From Nocardia sp. BSTN01 (GTDB lineage: Bacteria; Actinomycetota; Actinomycetes; Mycobacteriales; Mycobacteriaceae): 64,000 nt of DNA. The notes below the pieces were generated by a model, which searched no databases, was not told where the DNA came from, and was given only the letters and a program-made list of their open reading frames with translations. Of the stretch, positions 38,106-38,417 are shown in pieces. Position numbers and translations under genes: made by a program. Each line of letters starts with the position of its first letter. Position 1 is the first letter of the stretch. The stretch lies in the NCBI RefSeq assembly GCF_015354405.1, contig NZ_JADKYP010000022.1, forward strand, positions 39,786 to 103,785, read 5' to 3'.

Positions 38106-38417
38106 TCAGCGGCCGAGCGCGCCGCCGGCGACGGTGCTGTCCAGGCCGCCTCCGGCGACGGCAGGAAGAATGGTCACCGATCCGCCGGCCGGGACCTCGG
38201 CCTCCAGCCCACCGGCGAAGCGCACGTCCTCGTCGTCGACGTAGATGTTGACGTAGCGGTTGAGCTTGCCGTCGGACAGCAGGCGCTGCTCCAGTCCCGG
38301 GTAGTTGGCCTCGAGGTCGCCGATCACCTCGGCGAGGGTGGAACCGGTCGCCTGGACCCGCTTCTCACCTCCGGTGAGGGTGCGCATGATGGTCGGGATG
38401 GACACGGTTACCGACAT
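38106..38417 (-). CDS. cysO: CysO sulfur-carrier protein with C-terminal extension
   Basis: Ubiquitin-like carrier (MoaD/ThiS fold) whose C-terminal Gly is converted to a thiocarboxylate that feeds CysM. Residues 1-90 match mycobacterial CysO ([49 protein letters not shown]). Instead of stopping after the diglycine, the frame continues for 13 residues, [13 protein letters not shown], which contain a second VAGG. The tail must be removed before the carrier can be charged, unless the distal VAGG region serves. The adjacent JAMM protease is a candidate processor. AGGAGC precedes the ATG. Confidence 0.92.

Follow-up and report, generated by a model that had tools for sequence, protein, structure and literature searches.

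The cysO gene and its repeated diglycine

The window, by which we mean the whole stretch of 64,000 nucleotides from Nocardia sp. BSTN01, carries on its minus strand an open reading frame of 103 codons (positions 38106–38417) that encodes CysO and lies between mec (PF14464) and cysM (PF00291), a gene order that we take to be that of M. tuberculosis as well. The end of mec at 38465 is 47 bp from the start of cysO, as an earlier, sequence-only reading of this DNA had stated, and cysM starts with a GTG at 38100, 5 bp past the cysO stop codon; the mec start codon, a GTG at 38887, is a choice made in this analysis. A gene for a rhomboid protease (PF01694, 36256–37041) comes after cysM on the same strand. 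The features of the locus are as follows.

37138–38100, minus strand: cysM, cysteine synthase of the CysO pathway (PF00291, 6.6e-63; TIGR01136 above cut-off)
38106–38108, minus strand: stop codon TGA of cysO
38109–38147, minus strand: C-terminal tail, codons 91–103, presumed to be removed (translation, relatives, low pLDDT)
38121–38132, minus strand: second VAGG (codons 96–99)
38133–38159, minus strand: 27-nt unit GTCGCCGGAGGCGGCCTGGACAGCACC, whose copy number varies among near relatives
38148–38159, minus strand: first VAGG, presumed mature C-terminus at G90 (LPAVAGG match and alignment)
38149–38153, minus strand: GGAGG inside the two Gly codons, the likely cysM ribosome-binding site in tail-less relatives, here far from the cysM start
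38148–38417, minus strand: cysO core, codons 1–90, comprising the beta-grasp body and the first VAGG (PF02597, fold, model)
38465–38887, minus strand: mec, JAMM metalloprotease (HSHTATEAYPSRTD), the proposed trimmer (PF14464, 9.4e-33)

The body of the protein is a beta-grasp domain of the ThiS/MoaD type (PF02597, 1.5e-13). Its best matches in the PDB are the same two chains by sequence and by fold, 3dwg_C (66% identity) and 4n6e_B (62%), with a TM score of 0.81 on the query. Whereas the CysO chains of M. tuberculosis and Amycolatopsis in the PDB stop at VAGG, the window CysO has this motif at residues 87–90 and continues for 13 more residues before its stop. The AlphaFold2 model is confident through the last strand (residues 80–85), with VAGG directly behind that strand, and of low confidence in the tail, where pLDDT averages 50 over residues 91–100 and 44 over residues 101–103. 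The sequence-only reading had remarked, with no strand given, on a 13-residue extension past the diglycine that repeats VAGG; both observations hold, the extension belonging to a real reading frame on the minus strand.

The repetition arises from a 27-nt unit (GTCGCCGGAGGC GGCCTGGACAGCACC) that is followed by the second VAGG (GTCGCCGGCGGC). In three other Nocardia genomes (L003, L004 and L005) the 42 nt of tail plus stop codon are identical to the window, and the 270-nt cores differ from it at 5, 7 and 9 nucleotides respectively. A single unit is present in L001 and L003–L005, and the tail of L006 contains three GLDSTVAGG units, giving four VAGG altogether. No unit is found in L008, L009, L010 and L012, where VAGG is followed directly by ALGR and the cores are otherwise alike; N. 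nova NBRC 15556 (L258) shares this form, and in L011 (90% identical) the related units GLDNTAGG and GLDNPAGG occur. In the loci lacking a unit, the lone VAGG has the spelling of the second copy in the window, so these loci may derive from the collapse of a repeat instead of preserving the original state. The same tail DNA beside diverged cores, together with the varying number of units, means that neither sequencing error nor chance accounts for the tail. An error of sequencing or assembly, which the earlier reading had allowed might have displaced the stop from just behind the first VAGG, is contradicted by L003, L004 and L005, and we regard its probability as negligible.

Variable tails behind a constant motif

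Tails are common. Among 150 Nocardia genomes with one native cysO gene each, 51 genes have no tail, 60 have one of 1–2 residues and 39 one of 3–31 residues, making 99 tailed genes in all; the fusion copy described below (L002, the same as L317) is excluded from every tail count. In other genera of the family 23 of 42 loci are tail-less, the 42 being those fetched, mostly better-scoring, from 103 such genomes with a match. Beyond the family, we fetched 51 mec-linked CysO genes spread over 27 further families of the class; 35 of them are tailed, and tailed genes turn up in 19 of those families. The class sample comprises 59 places in 58 genomes, hand-picked for family spread from 242 genomes with a match to a query (window 38109–38378, minus strand) that leaves off the 13 N-terminal residues; the 242 include the genus and family of the window itself. 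The 68 loci classed as ‘class with mec’ likewise include two from Nocardia (L298 and L314) and several from Pseudonocardia, and in two of them (L301 and L302) the mec match is merely 38–40% identical. The earlier premise, a CysO ending in Gly-Gly on which any tail is exceptional, therefore does not hold in general, either in Nocardia (99/150) or in other families (35/51). The alignment of C-termini proposed with that premise was carried out for Nocardia and other genera of the family.

The tails themselves are highly variable. Deep conservation of the tail sequence was not seen: the 150 Nocardia genes show 38 different tail states, counting the state without a tail. The longest tails reach 31 residues in Nocardia and 36 in a locus from another family (L355). 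Tandem tails built from other units occur in L020, L026, L355 (ATEGEVAGGAAEGEVAGGAAESEVAGGAARKETAGG) and L311, an Aeromicrobium MAG. On a FastTree phylogeny of Nocardia made from flanks and core, on which all numbers of changes are minimum counts, the length class of three or more residues changes at least 19 times, and the presence or absence of a tail can be explained by as few as 3 changes.

In contrast, LPAVAGG is found in all 193 family loci fetched, whether tailed or tail-less, and is internal in the tailed genes; this figure comes from a regular expression requiring LPAVAGG, which no locus failed. Residues P85–G90 are invariant in an alignment of 42 sequences. Later VAGG-like motifs differ (AGG, AAG, VAGR, VAGE), and of the 31 tails in the family with at least 8 residues, 9 contain an exact VAGG and 22 do not. 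In loci of different genera, L176, L184 and L192 of the family and L355 outside it, the tail itself finishes with AGG.

Related carriers behave differently. ThiS ends exactly at GG in 30/30 Nocardia loci and MoaD likewise in 30/30, each set being the 30 loci closest to the window's own sequence out of 148 genomes with a match; set against the 99/150 tailed CysO genes this gives a Fisher p of about 9e-22, with kinship ignored. Among 11 carriers without mec nearby, which mostly form one paralogous group (SIIPAVAGG) and include an acidobacterial and an archaeal MAG, none has a tail of two or more residues and two have a single Cys. CysO-like paralogs without mec nearby were noted at L335, L352, L358, L361, L362, L363, L373 and L374; most of them carry SIIPAVAGG, and they stop at GG except for L361 and L374, which have one Cys behind it. 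PtmS3 is likewise capped by C, according to the excerpted account of that carrier (PMC6006322).

A second CysO, 86% identical, is encoded in the genome of the window itself (contig C141, L317:7654–8583), where it is fused in frame behind VAGG to a DJ-1/PfpI domain (PF01965). Its neighbours include ORFs that resemble metal P-type ATPases, as judged by reading rather than by a family search, and no mec match. As a carrier this fusion would need the same cut after VAGG. No clear match across the CysO–DJ-1 junction was found in any other genome among the 149 Nocardia searched: 66 of the 149 have a match, mostly starting at the DJ-1 part, so a conserved fusion was rejected. About a dozen matches at 46–54% identity and two at 68–71% do reach some way into the CysO part (starting at query residues 3 to 17); since each of those genomes has one CysO match, located elsewhere, we take these as alignment overrun.

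The residue that follows Gly-Gly shows a preference. Ala or Ser occupies this place in 60 of the 77 distinct tails, compared with 151 of the 564 positions further on, and the preference is specific to the reading frame (58 of 71 distinct tails of at least two residues in frame; 8 and 18 in the other frames). Serine at this position is encoded by TCN as well as AGY codons, and on the Nocardia tree Ala and Ser interchange at least 13 times, Ala/Ser and other residues at least 7 times, and all states at least 20 times. Against this, the codon past the stop reads Ala or Ser in 25 of 74 tail-less genes, a baseline far above zero. Arg closes 27 of the 56 distinct tails of at least three residues, compared with 31 Arg among 467 inner positions; the terminal Arg codons in the family are CGC (24), CGA (3) and CGG (2), the site in the window is 38109–38111, and the residue was possibly inherited from an AR-type cap. 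With only 3 changes of presence or absence on the tree, both the Ala/Ser and the terminal-Arg patterns may in part reflect inheritance. We noticed no shared tail residues other than these two. The window itself departs from the preference, as its first tail residue is Gly and Ala stands only behind the second VAGG.

Proposed removal of the tail by Mec

Matches to mec and cysM adjoin cysO in relatives too, and all 192 loci that have mec retain the metal-site motif of Mec (HSH-x7-S-x2-D); the sole locus of 193 without it is the fusion copy, which has no mec. PF00899 has a single match in the genome, an E1-like protein that carries a rhodanese domain, like MoeZ. The window locus can be compared with the CysO/Mec+/CysM/MoeZ system of M. 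tuberculosis, to whose carrier the window CysO is related by sequence and fold and in which Mec hydrolyses CysO-cysteine (PMC3227635).

The reading that we favour, and consider probable, is that CysO is a precursor which Mec would cut after G90 of the first VAGG, that the tail would be discarded, and that tails would then be free to drift. In outline, Mec would cut the peptide bond behind G90 after translation and free the 13-residue tail; MoeZ would activate the exposed Gly-Gly to a thiocarboxylate, which CysM would use to form CysO-cysteine; and Mec would then free cysteine from that adduct. Loss of a stop codon would be nearly harmless under such a scheme, and tails would drift, and lengthen by tandem duplication, provided that the first residue stays small. 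In the CysO-cysteine adduct the cysteine occupies the place of the first tail residue, and the product bond Gly-Gly-Cys is an amide. Because the tail bond Gly-Gly-X is of the same kind, an enzyme needed for the second reaction could perform the first, and because Mec must cut Gly-Gly-Cys to release the product, a tail would cost little beyond its own translation. The ThiS and MoaD pathways are not known to have such a release step. Cysteine is also close in size to Ser and Ala, and the simplest account that these sequences suggest is that Mec sees Gly-Gly-X in which X is small.

The evidence for trimming is comparative. The constancy of the first VAGG (193/193), the hypervariable tails, the tail-less ThiS and MoaD, the preference for Ala or Ser and the intact Mec motif (192/192) all argue for it, and from these we infer the cleavage itself, Mec as its agent, G90–G91 as its site and the account of drift. 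The earlier proposal that this carrier must be trimmed, with Mec the likely trimmer by analogy with QbsD/QbsE, thus gains support from comparison, although the view of the tail as an exception has to be given up. Some observations weigh on the other side. As 51 of the 150 Nocardia genes are tail-less, the presence of Mec cannot be credited to trimming, and the Gly that stands first in the tail of the window counts against an account based on Ala and Ser.

An unlikely alternative to Mec is a general protease or carboxypeptidase. The tail is unstructured in the model and would hence be open to many proteases, and another enzyme is possible inasmuch as the protease that cuts MoaX is not named in the excerpted text of PMC4326299. 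However, a general protease would act on ThiS and MoaD too, yet 60/60 loci examined are tail-less; the Ala or Ser behind Gly-Gly indicates a single enzyme with a defined site; and the 11 carriers without mec nearby, most of them from one paralogous group, have no tail of two or more residues. We judge it very unlikely that the second VAGG is the mature end, with Mec cutting before ALGR to leave an arm 9 residues longer. An Ala, of the favoured class, does stand behind the second VAGG, and the tails of L176, L184, L192 and L355 end exactly in AGG, but the number of VAGG is one or four among near relatives whose cores are otherwise alike, the later motifs vary across lineages whereas the first is kept in every locus fetched, and Gly-Gly lies directly behind the body in the solved CysO structures (3dwg, 4n6e). 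The structural place and the constancy of this Gly-Gly favour the first VAGG as the mature end. The VAGG units might instead be alternative maturation sites, one cysO gene yielding arms of several lengths that Mec would cut for different partners; the motif numbers, with four VAGG in L006 and five AGG-ending motifs in L355, bear on this idea, to which we give an equally low probability. If it were true, it would be a bacterial counterpart of graded precursor processing.

The repeat could also have been kept for reasons of DNA, the second VAGG copy restoring a cysM ribosome-binding site displaced by the tail, an explanation that concerns the repeat and is compatible with trimming. In tail-less relatives the cysM ribosome-binding signal likely overlaps the cysO protein code. 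Among Nocardia genes, GGAGG falls within the VAGG codons in 46 of 51 that lack a tail, in 2 of 60 whose tail is 1–2 residues long and in 12 of 39 with longer tails. Across the 182 of 193 family loci with a recognised cysM start, the 20 nt before cysM pair with the anti-SD sequence at a mean of −8.9 kcal/mol in tail-less genes (67 loci) and −3.1 kcal/mol in those with tails of at least 8 residues (30 loci). The second VAGG provides a strong site (−9.5 kcal/mol) in L184 and L192, from two other genera. In the window, however, the second copy reads GGCGGC, and pairing by the 20 nt ahead of cysM is weak (−1.7 kcal/mol). Of the 31 tails of at least 8 residues, 22 contain no exact VAGG. As a reason for the repeat of the window this explanation was rejected, and we hold it to be highly improbable; since the second VAGG does not restore the signal here, ribosome binding alone leaves the repeat unexplained, and it would fit some repeats but not the tail. 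Less probable still is that the tail is retained and the chemistry is unlike that of known CysO. We found no support for this: Gly-Gly would not be expected everywhere if it were unused, Mec, CysM and the MoeZ-like E1 all look ordinary, and the only residues that we saw shared among tails are the first and the frequent last Arg.

Capped carriers and the significance of the tail

Trimming by Mec would place the window CysO beside several known systems. Precursors of eukaryotic ubiquitin-like proteins carry extra C-terminal residues that are removed to expose Gly-Gly; these are protein modifiers, a role not attributed to CysO. HcyS/HcyD of Wolinella is another JAMM-linked carrier. In QbsE/QbsD of thioquinolobactin synthesis a protease bares the Gly-Gly of a capped carrier, as proposed here, although that is a siderophore pathway and its cap is short, presumably Cys-Phe. 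The carriers PtmS2 and PtmS3 of Streptomyces platensis are capped after Gly-Gly by MV and C respectively and accompanied by the JAMM protein PtmS1, in a study that cites QbsD (PMC6006322, in excerpt). Like the window, the PtmS2/PtmS1 pair combines carrier residues past Gly-Gly with a linked JAMM gene; the PtmS2 cap is two residues rather than 13, and the excerpted text mentions no repeats for it (PMC6006322). Inactivation of ptmS1 abolished two thio-products, from which the authors infer that the capped carriers are used, whereas inactivation of ptmS2 did not abolish thio-products and the authors suggest that PtmS3 stands in (PMC6006322). The dispensability of PtmS2 weakens the precedent.

Other cuts past a sulfur-carrier Gly-Gly are known from fused proteins. 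According to the excerpts drawn on, MoaX of M. tuberculosis is cut after Gly-Gly by a protease left unnamed there (PMC4326299), and the JAMM protein of Deinococcus radiodurans (DRJAMM) cuts the MoaD-MoaE protein DR2607 (PMC8832034). In both, as proposed here, the cut frees a working end, but the part released is a functional MoaE subunit, in contrast to the spare tail of the window CysO. A proposal of 2006 was that, where ThiS or MoaD is fused to another protein, the end of the carrier may be released by a JAB domain (PMC1779556, in excerpt).

Capped carriers with a JAMM partner have thus been published already, and the window CysO is a long, repeat-built case. Our search of open-licence papers, outside which most Mec and QbsD biochemistry lies, found no report of a CysO tail in Nocardia or of repeat-built tails. 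Within that search, what is new is how widespread and hypervariable the tails are, the re-encoding of VAGG by tandem repeats, the contrast with ThiS and MoaD and the preference for Ala or Ser. These data suggest that in Actinomycetes CysO commonly occurs as a C-terminal precursor, the much-studied form ending in Gly-Gly being one state among several. A product-releasing hydrolase that forgives tails would offer a simple evolutionary reason for them and would predict which carriers may be tailed, whilst the preference for Ala or Ser, near to Cys in size, would amount to a sequence rule that is open to a single enzyme assay.
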